From a virus: DNA of 62,714 nucleotides. The stretch covers positions 1-62,714 of the IMG/VR virus record IMGVR_UViG_3300010885_024601. One strand, 5' to 3'. Below are positions 1 to 62,714 of this stretch, piece by piece (within the stretch, counting starts at the first letter, position 1; each line of letters opens with the position of its first letter). Under the pieces are notes generated by a model. That model saw only the letters and a list, made by a program, of their open reading frames with translations, was not told where the DNA came from and did no database searches. The translations under genes and the position numbers were made by a program.

Positions 1-60
1 CTGCTTGAATTGTTTTGCATGGATGCCGAAGCGGCCCATGCCCTTAAGGAGAACACATGA
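1..60 (+). CDS. C-terminal end of a small early protein (copy of 62337-62474)
   Basis: The frame is open from the first base and ends at the TGA at 58-60 with the residues LKENT. It duplicates the last 20 codons of the 45-residue gene at 62337-62474. In the closed circle there is only one such gene. No function is recognisable. Confidence 0.6.
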   Translation: MLELFCMDAEAAHALKENT

Positions 61-128
61 GCTCTCGCTGGGCCCCTTTGCTCGTCACGCTGCTGATCTG
101 TGCGGCGTATTACTTAGCAAAGAATTGA
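57..128 (+). CDS. 23-residue single-span membrane peptide (left copy)
   Basis: The ATG at 57 overlaps the TGA of the upstream frame (ATGA) and follows AAGGAG at 46-51. The product begins MSSRWAPLL and holds one hydrophobic stretch (LLVTLLICAAYYLA), so it would be a tiny one-span inner-membrane peptide. The right copy at 62471-62542 differs by one residue (Ile for Leu). The role is unknown; small membrane peptides of this kind are common among phage early genes. Confidence 0.5.
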   Translation: MSSRWAPLLVTLLICAAYYLAKN

Positions 129-12032: not shown

Positions 12033-12063
12033 GTTACGCTATCCTTTCTAAAAACGTACGATT

Positions 12064-54139: not shown

Positions 54140-55606
54140 TCAATAATACTCAACAGGCTCTTGATTTGGCTCGGGCTCATCCCAGTCATCATCCTGCAAG
54201 GAAATAAACCCGCCCTGACGAAAACGGTTCCATGCCATCACCGCCGTGTCCACTTGGTCATCGTTCGATCCGTTCGGAAAAGCAGCACACTCCTCCACCA
54301 TATCATCCGCCCACTCCTGATCCTCAGGGTACCAAACCATCCCCGACTCCAGAATCGGTGCAACAGAGTTGGCGCGACTGATTTTGTCCTGACCAGTCCT
54401 GCGGCCGCCCGGAGAGAACATCGTGACAGGGATGCCGAGCTTACGCAGTTCTTGCTGCAGCGGAGTTCCAGTGGCCTTGGCCTCGATCAAGACGTTGTCG
54501 GGCTTCCAATACTGGTACTCGTCCCGTGCAACGCGTTTCAACTCCGGGAAATCCCAGCGACCTTTGCGCACGTTTAACAAGATGAGGTTGGGGCCCGAGT
54601 CCGCATCGGGATGGAACACGCCCCATGTGCTGATGACCGAGAAGTCAGCGGTCTCTTTTTTGGAGTACGCCGTGTCCATGCATTGCAAGATGTACTCACA
54701 AGACGGGGGTTCTGCAAAAGTCCACTTGCGCCACCACTCGCGTTTCAGGATCGCACCCTCAGAGTTGGTAGGCTGCTGCTGCCACTGGGCATTCCACTTG
54801 GGCAAGCCAATGGAGAACTTGACCTTCTCTAACTCGTCAATCTTCCAGTAGCCCGGCCAAAGGGGCTTGCCGCTTGGCAGGATGGCTGGGAACTCCAACA
54901 CCTCCCACTGGTCAGCCTTCAAGTTTTTCTGCATCTTCAGCAGACGGCCAGCAACGTCGTCGGTCTTCCAACGGGTGTTGATCAGGATGATTGCGCCGCC
55001 CGGTTGTAAACGCTGACGGGGGCCTGACTCGTACCAATCCCAAGTGTTTTGCATCGCCGTGTCCGAAATCGCATCCTGTTCGTCCAAGATGTCGTCCAGC
55101 ACAATGATGTCACCTCCGCGACCCGTCATCGCACCGCCCTTACCAATAAAGAAGGCTTCCCCGCCTTGGGCCGTGTTCCACCGTCCGGCGGCCTTGCTGT
55201 CAGCAGAAAGCTGCATGTTGGGAAAAATTTCCTTGTACCGCTCGTCATCAACAAGGTTACGGATCATCCGGCCAAAGCGTTGCGCTAGTTCAGCAGTGTG
55301 GGATCCAACGATGAGCTTGGACTGTGGCAAACGGCCCATGAGGTAGGCAGGAAAGAGATAGCTCCCAAGCTGGGACTTCCCGTGCCGGGGCGGCATGGCG
55401 ATGATCAGGCGTTTGCATTCCCCGGTGATGACTCGGTCGAATTTGTCCGCAATGATTCGATGGTGCTCCCCGACCAACATCTCAGGCCAAACGTATTGGC
55501 AAAAGTCGATGAATTTGGTTGTTGCACGCTCATGCGTTTCAAGGAGCTTGAGCCGCAGCTCCAAGCGTAATTGTTCTTCTTCAATGTCGGCAGGTACGTG
55601 TGCCAT
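54140..55606 (-). CDS. terL: Terminase large subunit
   Basis: 488 residues. ATPase: Walker A MPPRHGKSQLGSYLFPAYL (about 73-91), Walker B DIIVLDDILDEQDA (about 170). Nuclease: CMDTAYSKKETADFSVIS (first Asp), NVLIEAKATGTPLQQELRK, and DDQVDTAVMAW (last Asp). It pumps and cuts DNA at packaging. The T4 gp17-like form goes with headful packaging, and the circular contig agrees. The small subunit is 4.3 kb away at 59947-60621. Confidence 0.95.
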   Translation of the reverse strand: MAHVPADIEEEQLRLELRLKLLETHERATTKFIDFCQYVWPEMLVGEHHRIIADKFDRVITGECKRLIIAMPPRHGKSQLGSYLFPAYLMGRLPQSKLIVGSHTAELAQRFGRMIRNLVDDERYKEIFPNMQLSADSKAAGRWNTAQGGEAFFIGKGGAMTGRGGDIIVLDDILDEQDAISDTAMQNTWDWYESGPRQRLQPGGAIILINTRWKTDDVAGRLLKMQKNLKADQWEVLEFPAILPSGKPLWPGYWKIDELEKVKFSIGLPKWNAQWQQQPTNSEGAILKREWWRKWTFAEPPSCEYILQCMDTAYSKKETADFSVISTWGVFHPDADSGPNLILLNVRKGRWDFPELKRVARDEYQYWKPDNVLIEAKATGTPLQQELRKLGIPVTMFSPGGRRTGQDKISRANSVAPILESGMVWYPEDQEWADDMVEECAAFPNGSNDDQVDTAVMAWNRFRQGGFISLQDDDWDEPEPNQEPVEYY

Positions 55607-55850
55607 GGCAGACTCTCAAGTTCTGGAATTTTTATATATTACCCCACCCTAGCCTTTTTTAAAACAAGGGGGTGGTTTTGTGGGTTGCCTGATAAGTATT
55701 TGTGGGGAAATTGTTTGTCTCAAACCGAGGCGGAGGCTGACTCTAAACAGACGGGTGCAAATATGGCCCTCCCCCTACGGAAAAGACAAGGAAAGCCGCA
55801 GTCATAGACAAGGTATCCGCGGGCCCACCCACCCCCGCCACCACCCATTG

Positions 55851-55879
55851 GGAATACTTTTACAAAATCAGCCTGTCAA
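55851..55879 (-). promoter_or_regulatory. Candidate late promoter before terminase and head genes
   Basis: On the minus strand TTGACA (55874-55879) is 17 bases from TATTCC (55851-55856). The -35 is perfect, the -10 poor, a usual sign of an activator-dependent promoter. Directly upstream lies the 26-base palindrome 55890-55915. It would drive the terminase, portal, scaffold and capsid genes. Confidence 0.6.
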
Positions 55880-55889
55880 GTTATTTCTT

Positions 55890-55915
55890 CCTATCACCTC
55901 GGCCGAGGTGATAGG
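55890..55915. promoter_or_regulatory. 26-base perfect palindrome
   Basis: CCTATCACCTCGG is followed at once by its exact reverse complement. It lies 10 bases upstream of the -35 of the candidate late promoter. It contains ATCACCTC, also present in the inverted repeat at 57586-57609. It may be a binding site for a dimeric activator or a leftward terminator stem. Confidence 0.65.
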
Positions 55916-55940
55916 CGGAGGCTATGGCACAGGCCAAAAG

Positions 55941-55962
55941 AAACCCAGCAGCTGCTGGGTTT
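55941..55962 (-). terminator. Terminator-like palindrome after gene 55975-56445
   Basis: AAACCCAGCAG and its exact reverse complement CTGCTGGGTTT adjoin (22 bases in all). Leftward, the stem is followed by CTTTTGG, a short U tract. It ends the leader-cassette gene block just before the late promoter. Confidence 0.7.
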
Positions 55963-55974
55963 GTGCGGATCAGG

Positions 55975-56445
55975 TTAGTTGCACTCGATCCGGTATGTTG
56001 TGACTTCCTCTATTCGTGTGCCAGTTGCCACCTTCCTACAGGTGGGGGATCCGTCTCGCACGTAAGCGCTGATGCTGATGCGCACATCATCCAGCTGGAT
56101 CGTGTAGTCCTTGTTCAAGAACCGGGCCCACTCTTTCTCTTCCACCTTGTCGGTGAACTGCAAAAAGAAACCCAGCATGTCCACCAGCTTGGGGTCCTTG
56201 AATCCCTCCAAGTCATGCAGGGTCAAGTGGATGACTGGGCAATGATAGCTCGTGCTGGTAATGAACAAGGTACTGGCCTCTTCTGCATTCAAATCCTTGA
56301 ATGCACCGGAGTACTTTGCACGAATGATCATTCGTTGTTCTTCCATTTGCTTTGCTCTAGTGATCAGCGCATGCCCCTCTTGCTTGGATGACTGGACGTA
56401 GTTATTGATCGCTCTGATCAGAGGGTTTACTTTGCGAGTGTTCAT
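55975..56445 (-). CDS. Hypothetical early-type protein, 156 residues
   Basis: ATG 56445 with leader AGAAAGGATAG (56450-56460); an in-frame extension to 56523 would cover the promoter and is rejected. The product begins MNTRKVNPLIRAINNYVQSS, has a helical, charged first half, then ITSTSYHCPVIHLTLHDLEG and a beta-rich end with two Cys. No family is recognised. It has its own promoter. Confidence 0.75.
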   Translation of the reverse strand: MNTRKVNPLIRAINNYVQSSKQEGHALITRAKQMEEQRMIIRAKYSGAFKDLNAEEASTLFITSTSYHCPVIHLTLHDLEGFKDPKLVDMLGFFLQFTDKVEEKEWARFLNKDYTIQLDDVRISISAYVRDGSPTCRKVATGTRIEEVTTYRIECN

Positions 56446-56493
56446 TTCTCTATCCTTTCTAAGTTGTACTGGACCGGCTGGTCCAGTAACTAC

Positions 56494-56522
56494 ATTATAG
56501 GGGCAATGGGCCCGAGGGCCCA
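56494..56522 (-). promoter_or_regulatory. Cassette promoter for gene 55975-56445
   Basis: Minus strand: TATAAT at 56494-56499; 17 bases upstream TGGGCC (56517-56522) stands for the -35. Between promoter and leader lies the inverted repeat ACTGGACC/GGTCCAGT (56468-56487). A second inverted repeat, CAATGGGCCC/GGGCCCATTG, covers the -35 region (56504-56526). Confidence 0.65.
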
Positions 56523-56532
56523 TTGATTGTTG

Positions 56533-56964
56533 CTATCGGGCCCGCACTACCAGATCGATAGAGTTAATCGTGTCATGGATGTGAGATTCGAGGTATTCGT
56601 TCATCCACTCGCTGATGCTGTTGTCGATGTCGATGTTGTCGTTTATGTAGTCCTGCACCTTGTCGTTGATGTCGAGGTTGTCCTCGACCCAGCTCTCGAC
56701 GCGGCTGTCGAAGTTGGAGCTGGCCCAGTTGTCGATCTCATTGCGGATCAGGTCGAGCAGCGCCAGCTTCTCGGGGCTTGGACCGCGGGCCTGATCGAAT
56801 GCATTTGCGGCAGTGTTCAACACTACCATGACCGCGGTCATGGCATGCGCTTGAGATTCAGTTGGCAATGCAGCGATTACATCGTTTGCATAGATGACGG
56901 CTTCGTCGATGTCGCAACCGCGTGATGCGAACATGGTGCTGGTGTGTTTACGAATCGGGTTCAT
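56533..56964 (-). CDS. Hypothetical early-type protein, 143 residues
   Basis: ATG 56964 with leader AGAAAGGATAG (56969-56979). MNPIRKHTSTMFASRGCDID is followed by a helical region (ANDVIAALPTESQAHAMTAV) and a very acidic, Asp/Asn-rich C-terminal half with repeated short segments (SWVEDNLDINDKVQDYINDN). It may mimic DNA charge. It ends just before the next cassette; the stop TAG is part of the conserved GATAG at the cassette start. Confidence 0.75.
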   Translation of the reverse strand: MNPIRKHTSTMFASRGCDIDEAVIYANDVIAALPTESQAHAMTAVMVVLNTAANAFDQARGPSPEKLALLDLIRNEIDNWASSNFDSRVESWVEDNLDINDKVQDYINDNIDIDNSISEWMNEYLESHIHDTINSIDLVVRAR

Positions 56965-57010
56965 ATCTCTATCCTTTCTAGGTTGACCAGCATTGTTGCT
57001 GGTTGCATCC

Positions 57011-57039
57011 ATTATAGCCCAGCTGGGCAGCTGGGCTAA
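57011..57039 (-). promoter_or_regulatory. Cassette promoter for gene 56533-56964
   Basis: Minus strand: TTAGCC (57034-57039), 17 bases, TATAAT (57011-57016), followed by a leader with inverted repeat ACCAGCA/TGCTGGT (about 56986-57003) and AGAAAGGATAG. The region between the promoter elements is itself palindromic (AGCCCAGCT/AGCTGGGCT). Confidence 0.7.
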
Positions 57040-57049
57040 TGAATTGTTT

Positions 57050-57073
57050 CTATCAGGGCCGCGGCCCTGATAG
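57050..57073 (-). terminator. 24-base palindrome after gene 57076-57564
   Basis: CTATCAGGGCCG is followed by its exact reverse complement. It starts two bases beyond the stop codon and leads into GATAGAAACAATT. The A/T tail is imperfect as a U tract, but a terminator or mRNA-end stem is likely, separating this gene from the next cassette promoter. Confidence 0.65.
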
Positions 57074-57075
57074 GG

Positions 57076-57564
57076 TTACCTGTACCAGTAGTCGACGCCG
57101 TCGATGTTGATGCAGGAATAATCCGCGCGAACATTGCCCGCGGTCCTGTGCCAATCAATCTCAATATATGACGGCAGCTCCCGCGGGAGGTCTCCGATGT
57201 CCGACACCAGATCCGCTACATACTCCACAAAATAGCTTTCACGAATCAGGGTGATTGGGTACCAGTCCCCGCGCCACTGCTCATCTCCGCCATACCCGCG
57301 GAGATCCTCCATGATGGTCATCAGGCCCACGCGCTCGAGATTATCGGGACCGTTGTCCCATTCCAGCAGCTCGGCCCGAGCTGTCTCCAGATCTTTCCAT
57401 TCAGGCGTCGACTGTGTGTCTTCGCTGTCGTGGTAGTTGTACGCGTCCTCGCATGCGTCGACGTGGTCTTGCAGCTGCTCGCGCTCGGCCTCCAGCTCCT
57501 CGATTCGCTCAATGAGCGAGCGCACATCCAAGATATCGTGCATATTGTTTTCAGTGATTGACAT
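57076..57564 (-). CDS. Acidic coiled-coil protein, 162 residues
   Basis: ATG 57564 with leader AGAAAGGATAG (57570-57580). The first half is acidic coiled coil (MHDILDVRSLIERIEELEAE); the second half has WYPITLIRESYFVEYVADLV and LPSYIEIDWHRTAGNVRADY, ending GVDYWYR. I know this C-terminal pattern from phage and plasmid proteins that lie near antirestriction-type genes, but no function is established; similarity to ArdA is only in charge and context. Confidence 0.75.
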   Translation of the reverse strand: MSITENNMHDILDVRSLIERIEELEAEREQLQDHVDACEDAYNYHDSEDTQSTPEWKDLETARAELLEWDNGPDNLERVGLMTIMEDLRGYGGDEQWRGDWYPITLIRESYFVEYVADLVSDIGDLPRELPSYIEIDWHRTAGNVRADYSCINIDGVDYWYR

Positions 57565-57585
57565 GGTCTCTATCCTTTCTGTTAC

Positions 57586-57624
57586 TGAGGTGATCAGTAT
57601 ATCACCTCAGGGCCCGCGGGCCAT
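57586..57624 (-). promoter_or_regulatory. Cassette promoter and operator-like repeat for gene 57076-57564
   Basis: Minus strand: ATGGCC (57619-57624), 17 bases, TATACT (57596-57601). The -10 is at the centre of an inverted repeat, TGAGGTGAT/ATCACCTCA (57586-57609). This fits repressor binding over the -10. Leader AGAAAGGATAG follows. Confidence 0.7.
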
Positions 57625-57633
57625 GAATAATTT

Positions 57634-57855
57634 CTATCGGATATGCACCACCGATAGATGGGCAGCGGTCCAGCTGGGCGCGGCCCCAGCTCGCGCCCCT
57701 AGATCCTCGGCCGTCGGATCCGCGGGCCACGTGATCCGACGCCAGCAGTAGGGACAATGCCCCGCCATCTGTCGGGGCAGCTCGCGCACCTCACGGACCG
57801 CGGGCACGTTGTGCACGGGGCAGCGCCCCGTCATCTCAAAGTGCGAGGCCGTCAT
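57634..57855 (-). CDS. Small zinc-finger-like protein, 73 residues
   Basis: ATG 57855, overlapping the upstream TAA (TAATG). CPVH (about 12-15) and CPYCWRR (about 34-40) give a CxxH/CxxC zinc site; the rest is TWPADPTAEDLGARAGAAPS and ends SVVHIR. The stop TAG is within the conserved GATAGAAATTATTCAT of the next cassette. No precise family. Confidence 0.7.
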   Translation of the reverse strand: MTASHFEMTGRCPVHNVPAVREVRELPRQMAGHCPYCWRRITWPADPTAEDLGARAGAAPSWTAAHLSVVHIR

Positions 57856-58160
57856 TATGCGCACCTCATCAGCTCGGCCCACTCTTCGCCCATGGTATCG
57901 GCCACGAATTCAAAACTGCCCTTGGTCCCCTCTTGCACTTGGGAGCGGCTCGGGATGTGATTCCCATAATAGTCTCGAGCATCACGCGGCCCCAGCATGC
58001 AGCATCCCGATTCAATCGCGTCCATCATGGCGCGGCCGTAGCTGCCCTGAAAACTCCACGCGCTGCCTGAATTAATGGCCCGCTGAATGCTCAAGTAATA
58101 CTCTTCGGCCGTGGCCTCTTCGTCGCATTCAATCGTCTCAATGTCGTTCAATGTAAGCAT
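57855..58160 (-). CDS. Hypothetical early-type protein, 101 residues
   Basis: ATG 58160 with leader AGAAAGGATAG (58165-58175). MLTLNDIETIECDEEATAEE, then YYLSIQRAINSGSAWSFQGS and YGRAMMDAIESGCCMLGPRD, a pattern I have seen in small phage proteins of unknown role. It shares a promoter with the zinc-finger gene. Confidence 0.72.
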   Translation of the reverse strand: MLTLNDIETIECDEEATAEEYYLSIQRAINSGSAWSFQGSYGRAMMDAIESGCCMLGPRDARDYYGNHIPSRSQVQEGTKGSFEFVADTMGEEWAELMRCA

Positions 58161-58193
58161 CTCTCTATCCTTTCTAGCCCCAGCACTATTACT

Positions 58194-58231
58194 GGTGCGA
58201 TAAGTATATCGCACCACGGCCCGCGGTCCAA
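58194..58231 (-). promoter_or_regulatory. Cassette promoter and operator-like repeat for gene 57855-58160
   Basis: Minus strand: TTGGAC (58226-58231), 17 bases, TATACT (58203-58208). The -10 is centred in the inverted repeat GGTGCGATA/TATCGCACC (58194-58215). Same geometry as the unit at 57586-57624 but a different repeat sequence. Confidence 0.75.
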
Positions 58232-58241
58232 TGAATAATTT

Positions 58242-58265
58242 CTATCGGGGCCGCGGCCCCGATAG
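58242..58265 (-). terminator. 24-base GC palindrome upstream of cassette
   Basis: CTATCGGGGCCG plus its exact reverse complement, followed leftward by AAATTATT. It is the sister of the palindrome at 57050-57073 and probably acts as a terminator or insulator for transcripts from the right. Confidence 0.65.
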
Positions 58266-58461
58266 CCCCCCGAACCACGGCCCACGCACCACCACCAAAG
58301 CCCCGCGGGCCACGGCCCGCGGCCCTCGCGCCACGTTTACAGCGCTAAACAGCAGGGACCGCGGGCCTAGTTTACGGGTTGAACATTACCCGCGTGACCT
58401 GTCCCCAATTACCCGCTCTTCCCTGCAGAAACGGGGCAACCTGTCCCTAATTAGTTGTTGG
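58266..58461. other. Gene-free GC-rich stretch
   Basis: No supported gene. It holds several copies of GCGGGCC/GGCCCGC-type sequence and two similar pieces, CCTGTCCCCAATTA (58399-58412) and CCTGTCCCTAATTA (58440-58453). These may be decayed cassette remnants or protein-binding sites. Confidence 0.5.
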
Positions 58462-58527
58462 TTAATCGAATTGATCTAAAAACCACCAAAGCAGCATAAA
58501 AACAGCAAGCCCCACGAATATCAACAT
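58462..58527 (-). CDS. 21-residue single-span membrane peptide
   Basis: The ATG at 58527 overlaps the stop of the upstream gene. The product MLIFVGLAVFMLLWWFLDQF(D) is one hydrophobic span with a short acidic end. The upstream 231-residue gene is translated just before it, so coupled translation is likely. Role unknown; too short for family detection. Confidence 0.45.
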   Translation of the reverse strand: MLIFVGLAVFMLLWWFLDQFD

Positions 58528-59216
58528 GCCACCACCTCGCGCCCGATATCGCCCGCCACATGATGACGCAGCAGGGAACCAGTAGGCAGCGATTTTGCAA
58601 ATGCTTTGATAGCCGCGGCGTCGTTGTCTGTCTTTGCTTTTTTGGTGCCGTGCCATTGGATCGCAGTAGGGCCGCTCGCAGCGTAGCAGCCACCTTCCCC
58701 CGTGCCTACTTTCTTAGCGCCCGTGCCATGGGCCACAAAAACAATGACGTCTTGGCGGTCAGGGCGTGCGCACAACGGGGAACCATTGCCGCATTGTGCG
58801 CAGGTGAAATTCTCGGCCAGCTCTGCAGGGCAGCGATAAAAACGCACGTCGTCAATTATTTGCGGCCATTGTGTGCCAGTAGGCGCGGCCAGTACAGCAG
58901 GGCGCCCCAAGCGCACAGCGGCCACAGCTTCGGCCGTGGTGTCACAGCTCGCATTGATCACAGTTTGCCCTTTCTTAGCCTTAGGCAGCAGGGCAGCAGC
59001 AAAATGCGAATAAGTCCAAGCGATACCACCACGGGGCACAGCGGCCAGCAATGCGGCCATGTACTCCGTGTCTAAATCATTGGATCCTGTTTCACTTTTT
59101 GGGTGCAGGGCGCAAGACTTAGGGCAGGTGCCATAGGTTTCGTGTGTGCCTGAGCGATAAGTAACAGCAATCGGGCCAGTTTTACGGTTTGCCGTTACGG
59201 CTACAGTTTTTAACAT
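58521..59216 (-). CDS. Cys-rich conserved hypothetical protein, 231 residues
   Basis: ATG 59216 with leader AGAAAGGATAG (59221-59231). MLKTVAVTANRKTGPIAVTY leads to YGTCPKSCALHP (CPxxC), AVPRGGIAWTYSHFAAALLP, ASCDTTAEAVAAVRLGRPAV, then FTCAQCGNGSPLCARPD (CxxC and Cys) and VIVFVAHGTGAKKVG. The Cys groups and Gly/His motifs suggest a metal- or Fe-S-binding enzyme-like fold. I have seen similar proteins in phages and plasmids but no proven function. Confidence 0.75.
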   Translation of the reverse strand: MLKTVAVTANRKTGPIAVTYRSGTHETYGTCPKSCALHPKSETGSNDLDTEYMAALLAAVPRGGIAWTYSHFAAALLPKAKKGQTVINASCDTTAEAVAAVRLGRPAVLAAPTGTQWPQIIDDVRFYRCPAELAENFTCAQCGNGSPLCARPDRQDVIVFVAHGTGAKKVGTGEGGCYAASGPTAIQWHGTKKAKTDNDAAAIKAFAKSLPTGSLLRHHVAGDIGREVVAC

Positions 59217-59246
59217 TTCTCTATCCTTTCTGTTGATGCAGCCACA

Positions 59247-59275
59247 ATTTTAGCAGCTTAATAACTGCGATCCAA
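59247..59275 (-). promoter_or_regulatory. Cassette promoter for gene 58521-59216
   Basis: Minus strand: TTGGAT (59270-59275), 17 bases, TAAAAT (59247-59252). GATCCAAT/ATTGGATC (about 59269-59295) flank an A/T-rich loop upstream and could form a stem. Leader ends in AGAAAGGATAG. Confidence 0.75.
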
Positions 59276-59309
59276 TTGATTTTTTATATTGGATCCAGCT
59301 CTTCAATAG

Positions 59310-59468
59310 CTATTGCGACATGTGCGAGTCAGTAGGTTCATATCTTTCATATTCCAAAAACACGGCAATCACCGTTTGTTTGGTGATTTTGAACTCGTCA
59401 GCAATTTCGGTGACGCTCCACCCAGCTGCATCCGCTTCAAAAATTTCTTCAATGAGGTCGTTTGTCAT
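59310..59468 (-). CDS. Small helix-turn-helix protein, 52 residues
   Basis: ATG 59468 with leader AGAAAGGATAG (59473-59483). MTNDLIEEIFEADAAGWSVT, then EIADEFKITKQTVIAVFLEY: a clear helix-turn-helix (about residues 15-38) with ADEFKITKQTV as the turn and recognition helix. It lies in the block of genes with operator-like repeats, so it may be their regulator. Confidence 0.75.
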   Translation of the reverse strand: MTNDLIEEIFEADAAGWSVTEIADEFKITKQTVIAVFLEYERYEPTDSHMSQ

Positions 59469-59498
59469 CTCTCTATCCTTTCTGTTGATGGAGCCATA

Positions 59499-59527
59499 AT
59501 CTTAGCACCACGATAACCACGGTCCAA
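59499..59527 (-). promoter_or_regulatory. Cassette promoter for the HTH gene
   Basis: Minus strand: TTGGAC (59522-59527), 17 bases, TAAGAT (59499-59504). The leader (ATGGCTCCATCAACAGAAA) nearly matches that of the 59216 gene, so these two cassettes are recent duplicates of one another. Confidence 0.75.
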
Positions 59528-59537
59528 TTGATTTTTT

Positions 59538-59957
59538 CTATTGCGTTTCGGTTTTTGATAGCCATGCATATAGGTCTGCCCATGGCATGCCATGCGACGG
59601 CCATACAGCAACTGCAGGATGTCTCAGGCCGTGCGCGGCCACGTCAATTGCATCACTGCCGCGGTATAAATGAATTCTCGCAGGCTTCAGCGTCGTGCCC
59701 CCCTCTTGCAGCACCAAAATAAAGCAGGGCCTACCCTTGGCAGCATGCCTCGTCAGGAATGAAATTTGATGCGGCCGCAGTGACACCTTCAGGCCACTCG
59801 CCACCACTTTCAGCTCCATCATCACAAAGCGATCATGTACGCCCACCAGCATGTCAGGAATGCCAAGGTTGACGCGGTTTTCAATCCGCTCAATGGCCAC
59901 ATCAAACCGCAGCAGGGCATCCCGCACGCGTGCCGAAAATCGTGCCTCAGGTTTCAT
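59538..59957 (-). CDS. VRR-NUC-like PD-(D/E)XK nuclease
   Basis: 139 residues from ATG 59957, overlapping the terminase small subunit stop. MKPEARFSARVRDAL has the early Glu, ENRVNLGIPDMLVGVHDRF the PD motif, and VMMELKVVASGLKVSLRPHQ the E-x-K and following Gln. This is the order of VRR-NUC or Holliday-junction-resolvase-like nucleases of phages. It may process branched DNA before packaging, in keeping with its place beside the small terminase. Confidence 0.82.
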   Translation of the reverse strand: MKPEARFSARVRDALLRFDVAIERIENRVNLGIPDMLVGVHDRFVMMELKVVASGLKVSLRPHQISFLTRHAAKGRPCFILVLQEGGTTLKPARIHLYRGSDAIDVAAHGLRHPAVAVWPSHGMPWADLYAWLSKTETQ

Positions 59958-60621
59958 CGTCGGGCTCGTCGTCGTTGTCGCGCTCAAAGATGTCCAGCGG
60001 GGGCTCTTCTACCCCTGCATCAAACACAGGGTCGCGCTCGCGGTCTATCGTCTCAATGACCTGCCCCGTGCTCGCCTCAATCAAAGCAGTAGGCGGCGGC
60101 CCACCATACAGTTTTTTGAGCTCGTCCAACTTCTTTTGGACCTCCTCTTTGCTCATGCTGTCAATGGTGCCCGTGCGAATCTCTTTGCGGTCCACATAGA
60201 TGCTGCCCAAAGCCTGCCCGCGGCGATATTCTGCCTGCACAGCGGCTGCATATGCCCCCGCGTCCAAAGCCTTGTCACGAATGATTTGCAGGTCCCGCAT
60301 GTGCCGTTCATACGATGTGTTGTACTTGCTGTTGAGCTCTGCCCTGTAGGCCTGAATGGCGGCCACCACGTGAGGGTTGATTTCAGGGTTGGTCAGCTTC
60401 CACGCCATCACCGAAGCAGAGGTTGATTTGTACCCTGCGCGGATCGCTGCCTCCTTCATGGTGACACGGCCATCCCCACTCACCAACTCAGTGATGAACT
60501 TCCATTCCTTAGCGTTGACAGTACGGGGCTGCTTACGCAGCGGGGCCACCTCTGTGGCCATTCGCGCAGCTGCCTTATCTCGCAGCGCAGGGGGCACGTT
60601 GTACACGTCCTTTTTGCCCAT
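59947..60621 (-). CDS. terS: Terminase small subunit
   Basis: 224 residues from ATG 60621. MGKKDVYNVPPALRDKAAAR and RTVNAKEWKFITELVSGDGR lead to a helix-turn-helix (VTMKEAAIRAGYKSTSASVM) and a long central helix region (INPHVVAAIQAYRAELNSKY). The C-terminal quarter is acidic and disordered. It should recognise the packaging site. It is split from terL by the 4-kb block of cassette genes. Confidence 0.85.
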   Translation of the reverse strand: MGKKDVYNVPPALRDKAAARMATEVAPLRKQPRTVNAKEWKFITELVSGDGRVTMKEAAIRAGYKSTSASVMAWKLTNPEINPHVVAAIQAYRAELNSKYNTSYERHMRDLQIIRDKALDAGAYAAAVQAEYRRGQALGSIYVDRKEIRTGTIDSMSKEEVQKKLDELKKLYGGPPPTALIEASTGQVIETIDRERDPVFDAGVEEPPLDIFERDNDDEPDDET

Positions 60622-60836
60622 TATTTGATTCTCCACAAGCGCCAGCCATTTTCAACGGTACGCAAGGAAAACTTCCAATCAAGCCCGTGGGCCTTGGTCC
60701 ACCGCATACCGCTAACACGTGCCTTGTCTGCATCAGGCCGCTCTGCAAACAAGATGCTGTCGCCTACCCCCATGTCATGGAAAGGGTACTTAGTCCGCAT
60801 GACTGGATACTCAATGCCATTGTCTACTTTGTACAT
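60621..60836 (-). CDS. Small conserved phage protein, 71 residues
   Basis: MYKVDNGIEYPVMRTKYPFH, DMGVGDSILFAERPDADKAR and WKFSLRTVENGWRLWRIK: a small beta-rich domain seen in many phages. The stop and the terS start share a base. It begins the leftward transcript from 60869-60898. Function unknown. Confidence 0.78.
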   Translation of the reverse strand: MYKVDNGIEYPVMRTKYPFHDMGVGDSILFAERPDADKARVSGMRWTKAHGLDWKFSLRTVENGWRLWRIK

Positions 60837-61300: not shown

Positions 61301-61340
61301 AACCCCGTTACTTACCAAAACCCCCAGAAAGGATAGCTAA

Positions 61341-61577
61341 ATGAACCCGAACATCAATGAACAAGACTTGGTCCGTGAGACGTTAAACGCGTCGCGCATG
61401 TTGTTGTCCATCCTGTCCGACAACTTCTCTAACCCCGTGGATGCCTACGTTGCCTTGGTCTTTACCTTGGCTTCTTTGTCCCATGGTATGGGCATTGATT
61501 TGGAGCACACCGTGGCGGGTGTGACCTCTGCTTACAACGATTTGGCTGCCAGCCGTGCAAAAAAGGATGACCTGTGA
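61341..61577 (+). CDS. First gene of the early arm, 78 residues
   Basis: ATG 61341 with AAAGGATAG five bases before it. MNPNINEQDLVRETLNASRM and LLSILSDNFSNPVDAYVALV form helices; the rest is GIDLEHTVAGVTSAYNDLAA. All-helical; no family known to me. Position directly after the early promoter suggests strong early expression. Confidence 0.7.
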   Translation: MNPNINEQDLVRETLNASRMLLSILSDNFSNPVDAYVALVFTLASLSHGMGIDLEHTVAGVTSAYNDLAASRAKKDDL

Positions 61578-62344: not shown

Positions 62345-62474
62345 CCGTGAATTATTTTTGAAAGCGCTGCACAACGCCATTGCTTGGCAAAACCGATGTG
62401 TCGAGCTCTATGAGCTGCTTGAATTGTTTTGCATGGATGCCGAAGCGGCCCATGCCCTTAAGGAGAACACATGA
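62337..62474 (+). CDS. 45-residue helical early protein
   Basis: ATG 62337. MNDRELFLKALHNAIAWQNR and CVELYELLELFCMDAEAAHA, ending LKENT with AAGGAG in the last codons. Its C-terminal part is repeated at 1-60 by the contig overlap. Function unknown. Confidence 0.6.
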   Translation: MNDRELFLKALHNAIAWQNRCVELYELLELFCMDAEAAHALKENT

Positions 62475-62542
62475 GCTCTCGCTGGGCCCCTTTGATCGTC
62501 ACGCTGCTGATCTGTGCGGCGTATTACTTAGCAAAGAATTGA
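62471..62542 (+). CDS. 23-residue single-span membrane peptide
   Basis: ATG 62471 in an ATGA overlap, with AAGGAG before it. MSSRWAPLIVTLLICAAYYL(AKN): one membrane span. The left copy (57-128) has Leu for Ile. Role unknown. Confidence 0.5.
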   Translation: MSSRWAPLIVTLLICAAYYLAKN

Positions 62543-62550
62543 GGTGAAGC

Positions 62551-62714
62551 ATGACGTTACCCTTTGACATCTGTCGTTGTGTTGGCGTGAAGGATGACCG
62601 TAATCGTTTGGTTACACCTTGTGCAACCTGCCGCAGAGTGTTGGAGCAAAAACCTAGTGGGCCAAGAACCCCGTGGTTTATGAAGCCCCCGTTGAAAGAC
62701 GGTGAGTGTGAGCA
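62551..62714 (+). CDS. Small Cys-rich early protein, runs past the contig end
   Basis: ATG 62551 after GAGGTGAAGC. The frame (MTLPFDICRCVGVKDDRNRL, then VTPCATCRRVLEQKPSGPRT) is open to the end and would continue from base 301 to the stop at 317-319 on the circle, giving about 60 residues. CRC and CATC suggest a small zinc-binding protein. The left copy is broken by sequence differences. Confidence 0.7.
   Translation, partial: MTLPFDICRCVGVKDDRNRLVTPCATCRRVLEQKPSGPRTPWFMKPPLKDGECE

Follow-up and report, generated by a model that had tools for sequence, protein, structure and literature searches.

The locus

The window analysed here is one whole IMG/VR record of a freshwater phage (IMGVR_UViG_3300010885_024601; 62,714 nt). 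Between its terminase genes terS (59947-60636, phrog_51) and terL (54140-55606), an array of small genes lies on the minus strand, and six of these genes are each preceded by a cassette that combines putative promoter boxes, often inverted repeats, and a fixed 13-base leader. Comparison with hundreds of related phage fragments suggests that this array is best read as a 'plug-in' layout rather than as a set of separate gene switches. The cassettes (A to F, from the terS side) and the genes are as follows.

59471-59527, minus strand: cassette A, -35 box TTGGAC (59527-59522), 17 bases, -10 box TAAGAT (59504-59499)
59483-59471, minus strand: leader of cassette A, AGAAAGGATAGAG, after a 15-base gap from the -10 box; without a leader hairpin
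59310-59468, minus strand: gene A, 52 aa, weak helix-turn-helix match; found in 1 of 102 informative relatives
59219-59275, minus strand: cassette B, -35 box TTGGAT (59275-59270), -10 box TAAAAT (59252-59247), leader 59231-59219
58521-59216, minus strand: gene B, 231 aa, DUF7227 (E 1.5e-31)
58163-58265, minus strand: cassette C, -35 box TTGGAC (58231-58226), -10 box TATACT (58208-58203), leader 58175-58163; upstream palindrome 58265-58242, palindrome 58216-58193 enclosing the -10 box, leader hairpin 58195-58180
57855-58160, minus strand: gene C, 101 aa, weak DUF7417 match
57634-57855: 73-aa open reading frame (ORF) overlapping gene C, without a cassette
57568-57658, minus strand: cassette D, degenerate -35 box ATGGCC (57624-57619), -10 box TATACT (57601-57596), leader 57580-57568; upstream palindrome 57658-57633, palindrome 57610-57585 enclosing the -10 box
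57076-57564, minus strand: gene D, 162 aa, phrog_25535, no function assigned
56967-57073, minus strand: cassette E, -35 box TTAGCC (57039-57034), -10 box TATAAT (57016-57011), leader 56979-56967; upstream palindrome 57073-57050, spacer palindrome 57038-57015, leader hairpin 57003-56986
56533-56964, minus strand: gene E, 143 aa, no function assigned; 55 family members behind cassettes
56448-56525, minus strand: cassette F, degenerate -35 box TGGGCC (56522-56517), -10 box TATAAT (56499-56494), leader 56460-56448; spacer palindrome 56525-56504, leader hairpin 56487-56468 beginning at the predicted transcript start
55975-56445, minus strand: gene F, 156 aa, no function assigned
About 56487, 57004, 57589, 58196, 59240 and 59492 (each ±2), minus strand: predicted transcript starts of the six cassettes

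Cassettes A and B are 77% identical. The DUF7227 gene, which has no assigned function, is the commonest array gene across the relatives (74 members). In the relatives (for example L010, L017, L020 and L044) its usual downstream neighbour is a member of a 318-aa protein family, likewise without an assigned function, which counts 56 members behind cassettes and is absent from the array of the window.

A constant leader at the translation start

As the initial annotation had proposed, six small genes of the minus strand each have an exact copy of the leader AGAAAGGATAGAG 2-3 bases ahead of their ATG; two near-copies of the 13-base leader complete the set in the window. The core AGAAAGGA occurs in the window only at leader genes, namely the six array genes, a 78-aa gene at 61341 and a site at 12037, whereas the other genes have varied ribosome sites, AAGGA, AGGAG and GAGGT among them. 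This core is complementary to TCCTTTCT and gives an 8-base match to the 3' tail of the 16S rRNA of the presumed host. The genus assigned to a contig of a metagenome-assembled genome (MAG), which encodes a TerL of 89% identity, was taken as the presumed host genus. The 16S tail was not found in the MAG bin carrying this nearest TerL, and genomes of the genus were searched instead, two of which contain the tail ...CACCTCCTTTCT.

Across 627 leader sites, an ATG lies 7 bases on from AGAAAGGA in 64%, and TAG comes after the core in 85%, a percentage inflated by the retrieval of some loci with this very motif. Such a TAG is more than 16S pairing requires.

Promoter boxes in the window and its relatives

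Viral contigs, which are fragments, contain hundreds of relatives of TerL, of terS and of the DUF7227 gene. In most of the related loci the leader is found several times on the terL strand and once on the opposite strand. The cassette pattern recurs in these contigs at 292 leader-anchored sites, which were made non-redundant at 80% and still retain some relatedness. A sigma70-type -10 box is present at 225 of them (77%), and a strong one (score >7) at 48% of sites compared with 8% of shuffles, a sixfold enrichment. Alignment on the -10 box brought out TATAAT, together with a stretch rich in A at offsets -33 to -29 and the dinucleotide CA where transcription is expected to start. The -35 box at these sites is weak and of TTG type, with its mean match highest at a spacing of 17 bases.

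In the window, the -10 boxes lie where they had been placed, with TATAAT in F and E, TATACT in D and C, TAAAAT in B, and TAAGAT in A. The -35 element described as TTGGAC-like and exactly 17 bases away holds for three of the six cassettes (A TTGGAC, B TTGGAT, C TTGGAC) and fails for E (TTAGCC), D (ATGGCC) and F (TGGGCC). A generic sigma70 scan did not mark these promoters above chance (3 found vs 4.5 expected). Thus, the case for them rests on the shared frame and on its recurrence in the relatives, both of which can be read directly from the aligned sites.

Inverted repeats and leader hairpins

The four inverted repeats named earlier (56467-56488, 56986-57003, 57585-57610 and 58193-58216) exist, and several others had been missed. 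Two of these are spacer palindromes, at 57015-57038 (E) and 56504-56525 (F); three lie upstream of the -35 box, at 58242-58265 (C), 57633-57658 (D) and 57050-57073 (E); one, at 55890-55915, precedes terL; and cassette C has a hairpin in its leader (58180-58195). The window contains 35 stems with arms of at least 8 bases, where first-order random sequences gave 11-20. Of the 35, 18 are located within 55890-59295, which makes up 5.4% of the window (binomial p ~3e-14). Among the promoters of the relatives, palindromes with arms of at least 7 bases lie upstream of the -35 box in 23% (3.3% when shuffled) and in the spacer between the two boxes in 21% (1.8% when shuffled); perfect leader stems of at least 7 are found in 42% (1.9% when shuffled).

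The 5' arm of the leader stems mostly lies at offsets 10-13 from the -10 box, which is the expected transcript start, and the stems mostly finish 3-9 bases before AGAAAGGA. With G-U pairs permitted, 52% of long leaders have a stem, compared with 13% of chimeric leaders. In the window, a 5'-terminal hairpin of this kind is present in cassettes C, E and F. Orthologous leader stems differ by compensating changes, indicating that the pairing is kept while the letters change. In E. coli, as work of the Belasco laboratory established, a 5'-terminal stem-loop is able to stabilise an mRNA. For those repeats that lie where the transcript is predicted to begin, an mRNA hairpin is a simpler reading than an operator, and the data lean this way. 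A search of Rfam gave no credible match to a known RNA family. The asymmetry between G-U and A-C mismatches was rejected as proof of an RNA hairpin, for an early 12:3 (p=0.035) in the leaders faded to 11:4 (p=0.12) with more data; the ratios at the other two repeat positions are 9:7 and 3:2.

The initial annotation had suggested that each gene has its own switch. This is not borne out, since the repeats lie partly at the predicted transcript 5' end, the proposed regulators are rare, and no shared operator sequence was found among the cassettes. Two proteins considered as general regulators, the 52-aa helix-turn-helix protein and a winged-helix protein, were rejected as too rare, being present in 1 and 6, respectively, of 102 informative cassette-bearing relatives.

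The palindromes that overlap the promoter, in the spacer or at the -10 box, could still be operators, each read by its own or by a multi-specific regulator, a role that has also been suggested for the repeats of the ESAS elements of actinobacterial phages. Their enrichment in the spacer agrees with such gene-specific DNA switches, and several orthologous pairs preserve the palindrome by paired changes (for example AGTGGAC..GTCCACT to AGCGGAC..GTCCGCT). Moreover, the poorest -35 boxes coincide with such palindromes in F and, imperfectly, in D, and spacer palindromes show no bias of G-U over A-C, so that nothing ties them to RNA. However, the palindromes within one genome are so unlike one another that a single ordinary regulator could not read them all, the candidate regulators are as scarce as stated above, and 79% of the promoters have no spacer palindrome of that size (arms of at least 7). 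We therefore regard DNA switches as improbable. Both in the window and among the relatives, each cassette tends to have a repeat sequence of its own, with no single consensus per genome. At L080:8346-9418, three consecutive cassettes seem to share nearly one promoter and leader (TGTTTATAGTAGTGGCACG..CCGGCGGATAAC), unlike the cassette-specific repeats elsewhere.

Alternatively, the upstream and spacer palindromes might end or insulate the preceding transcript while the promoter starts the next one. The upstream palindromes often overlap the stop codon with which the preceding gene ends or stand directly behind it, a layout that agrees with the promoter-early stem-loop (PeSL) cassettes of T4-like phages. 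Yet T-runs (at least 5 T in the next 8 bases) are scarce behind these stems, with 4 cases among 36 upstream stems and 4 among 32 spacer stems, and in the commonest form the stem is followed by A-rich sequence. The palindromes were thus rejected as ordinary intrinsic terminators. A single likely terminator lies where the array ends (55941-55962). Promoter-terminator cassettes of this kind are accordingly an unlikely account of the array.

Re-pairing of genes and promoters

The earlier picture of a modular expression system with a constant frame is upheld by the relatives, as the frame is present in hundreds of related contigs in which promoters and genes have been re-paired many times. Altogether, 568 leader sites precede 103 protein families (54 singletons). 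In 66 family pairs, promoter units that are nearly identical are followed by unrelated genes: sequence identity is ~94% as far as the leader and drops to ~30% once the coding part begins. Ten families show the converse just as clearly, with one gene placed under unrelated promoters. Within the larger families, the median identity of promoter units is mostly 0.32-0.43, compared with 0.32 between families; the exception is one family of close relatives with a within-family identity of 0.82. Exact insertions of a gene plus its leader between leaders were also observed. Genes and promoters have thus been freely re-paired.

These joints bear on whether the leader is kept as a recombination target, in which case homologous exchange at 13-16 shared bases would shuffle genes and translation would be a secondary role. 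The 3' ends of shared blocks indeed gather 10-25 bases past the leader start (31.7% vs 1.1% random, 29-fold), and the exact gene-plus-leader insertions point in the same direction. With non-leader gene starts as control, however, the excess shrank to an odds ratio of 1.7 for joints at 3' ends (31% of leader genes vs 21% of non-leader gene starts, p=0.012), and 5' block starts showed no leader excess (27% vs 20%). The leader was rejected as a special recombination site on this basis, non-leader gene starts being rich in joints as well. Selection for working gene starts accounts for most of the clustering of joints, and a recombination target is very unlikely to be what keeps the leader.

A proposed model of self-sufficient transcription units

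With moderate confidence, we propose that the cassettes are independent transcription units of the host polymerase with an extended Shine-Dalgarno leader, similar to SAS/ESAS and PeSL elements. Each small gene would form its own unit, with an active promoter transcribed by the host RNA polymerase. The predicted unit begins with an A-rich element and a -35 box of variable quality, followed after ~17 bases by a TATAAT-type -10 box, often an mRNA 5' hairpin, the fixed AGAAAGGATAG leader and, usually 7 bases past its AGAAAGGA core, the ATG. The leader would lead to uniform translation. The hairpin, the position and enrichment of which are apparent in the aligned leaders, probably shields the mRNA from 5'-end-dependent decay, and probably also prevents the ribosome site from being covered by folded sequence from further upstream. 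As self-sufficient units, the cassettes would allow genes and promoters to be exchanged with expression kept.

Several observations weigh against this proposal. A clear -10 box is missing at 64 of the 292 leader sites, indicating that the leader is also used inside operons. The -35 boxes of D, E and F are poor and the -10 box of A is weak, and some cassette promoters may therefore need an activator. Cassettes A, B and D, with their short leaders, lack the hairpin. The final leader ratio of 11:4 is a hint of an RNA hairpin that was not repeated in the comparison of orthologs (G-U vs A-C of 24:21). In addition, other relatives of TerL are found in bins of different phyla, so that the host is only presumed.

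There is also a slim chance that the shape of the promoter-overlapping palindromes itself, not their letters, is selected, as a DNA cruciform or a read-through RNA hairpin; if so, each swapped promoter unit would bring its own insulator or switch without a matching regulator.

Comparison with known systems

SAS and ESAS elements have been described in Cluster K mycobacteriophages and Cluster EF Microbacterium phages (PMC3203893, PMC7302621, PMC11373665). The SAS is 13 bp long and unusually conserved; it takes the place of the ribosome site in front of many genes and is complementary to the 16S rRNA, with conserved bases beyond this match; about half of the copies are preceded by an inverted repeat, and upstream stop codons may fall inside the motif (PMC3203893, PMC7302621, PMC11373665). 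The ESAS of Adephagia has SigA-like -35 and -10 boxes 17-18 bp apart, and ESAS repeats follow one consensus per genome and were judged not to form RNA pairs (PMC3203893, PMC7302621, PMC11373665). Such repeats have been proposed as possible recombination targets (PMC3203893), an idea of which our joint data are a partial test, mostly negative for leader targeting.

The present cassettes likewise have a short conserved start motif that is more constant than other ribosome sites, 16S complementarity plus a conserved TAG beyond it (the host itself being presumed), and promoter hexamers in a subset (-10 boxes at 225 of 292 sites, a weak -35 peak at 17). They differ in that their repeats vary between cassettes and are kept by paired changes, whereas ESAS repeats share a consensus; in addition, they are packed between terS and terL, and the re-pairing of promoters and genes is directly observed. 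Compared by eye with the motifs of Clusters K and EF (GGGATAGGAGCCC, GGGAAAGGACCCC), the GAAAGGA core alone resembles the EF motif, and no homology is claimed.

PeSL cassettes, reportedly described in the T4-like phages RB49 and phi1 by Arbiol et al. in 2010 (GBE 2:140) and Comeau et al. in 2014 (GBE 6:1611), are said to combine a small sigma70-type promoter and a stem-loop between small variable genes of a plastic region, in which genes are gained or lost at these units. Their stem-loops are reported to be effective terminators. Both studies are cited in PMC4503421. The array shares with them the sigma70-type promoters between small variable genes, as well as gene gain, loss and swap with joints at the cassette (the 66 family pairs), although non-leader starts also carry joints. 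It differs in the scarcity of T-runs behind its stems and belongs to another phage lineage, and we know of no PeSLs with a fixed extended Shine-Dalgarno leader. Lambdoid morons are single added genes with their own promoter and terminator. The cassettes resemble them in that added genes bring their own promoter, but here a whole array stands in one frame without individual T-run terminators. Because SAS/ESAS and PeSL elements have a like layout, the earlier description of the array as perhaps the most novel regulatory design in the genome was overstated.

With this analysis, the SAS/ESAS design, so far a feature of actinobacterial phages and of unproven function, is extended to a widespread aquatic phage lineage. 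Its hundreds of natural variants bring two questions within reach of a test: does the start motif have its role in translation or in the exchange of genes, and do the inverted repeats work at the RNA or at the DNA level? The cassettes also offer a ready natural set of portable promoter-plus-leader parts.

Related phages

No named phage with a close DNA-level relationship to the window was found. By TerL identity, the nearest are DSL-LC04 (61%), 023Pt_psg01 (56%), HTVC027P (52%) and HTVC023P (50%), of which HTVC027P and HTVC023P are Pelagibacter phages. The best explanation is that the window derives from a phage lineage related to HTVC023P-type podoviruses of Pelagibacter, with terS-terL as a locus of variable genes. 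HTVC027P has no RNA polymerase of its own and depends on that of the host, and its expression classes show a mosaic-like arrangement, in which the terS-terL genes gp33 and gp34 form a separate cluster in RNA-seq (PMC12753301). We found TTGACA upstream of both genes. These reports on HTVC027P speak for the proposed use of the host polymerase by the cassettes.

Inspection by eye indicated that several terS-terL genes of all four phages also have repeated leaders or promoters, with the wordings AGAAAGGTAT behind TTGACA-17-TAGGAT, ACTAACAAA..GGAG, AGAAAGGATA and ACATACAGGAGAAA. Unlike the lineage of the window, each phage has its own leader wording in few copies per genome. The loci L172, L174 and L364 (DSL-LC04, HTVC027P and HTVC023P) each seem to have such a wording of their own, with a GGAG-type core in DSL-LC04.

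Other features of the window

Outside the six cassettes, the following elements were recorded.

55941-55962, minus strand: likely intrinsic terminator at the array end, stem AAACCCAGCAGCTGCTGGGTTT then CTTTT; seen by eye, not listed by the pattern scan
55915-55890, minus strand: 26-base perfect palindrome ahead of terL, preceding the TTGACA box
55850-55915, minus strand: candidate terL promoter, TTGACA (55879-55874) and TATTCC 18 bases apart, without the AGAAAGGATAG leader
61326-61577, plus strand: opposite-strand leader AGAAAGGATAGCT before the 78-aa gene (at 61341)
12037-12049, minus strand: isolated copy of the leader, AGAAAGGATAGCG, with TTGACA and TACACT ahead of it and a GTG start after it

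A single opposite-strand copy of the leader is similarly present in many relatives. The start of the window (1-100) seems to be repeated near its end (62400-62714; ORF ...CMDAEAAHALKENT), which hints at a terminally redundant or circular genome.

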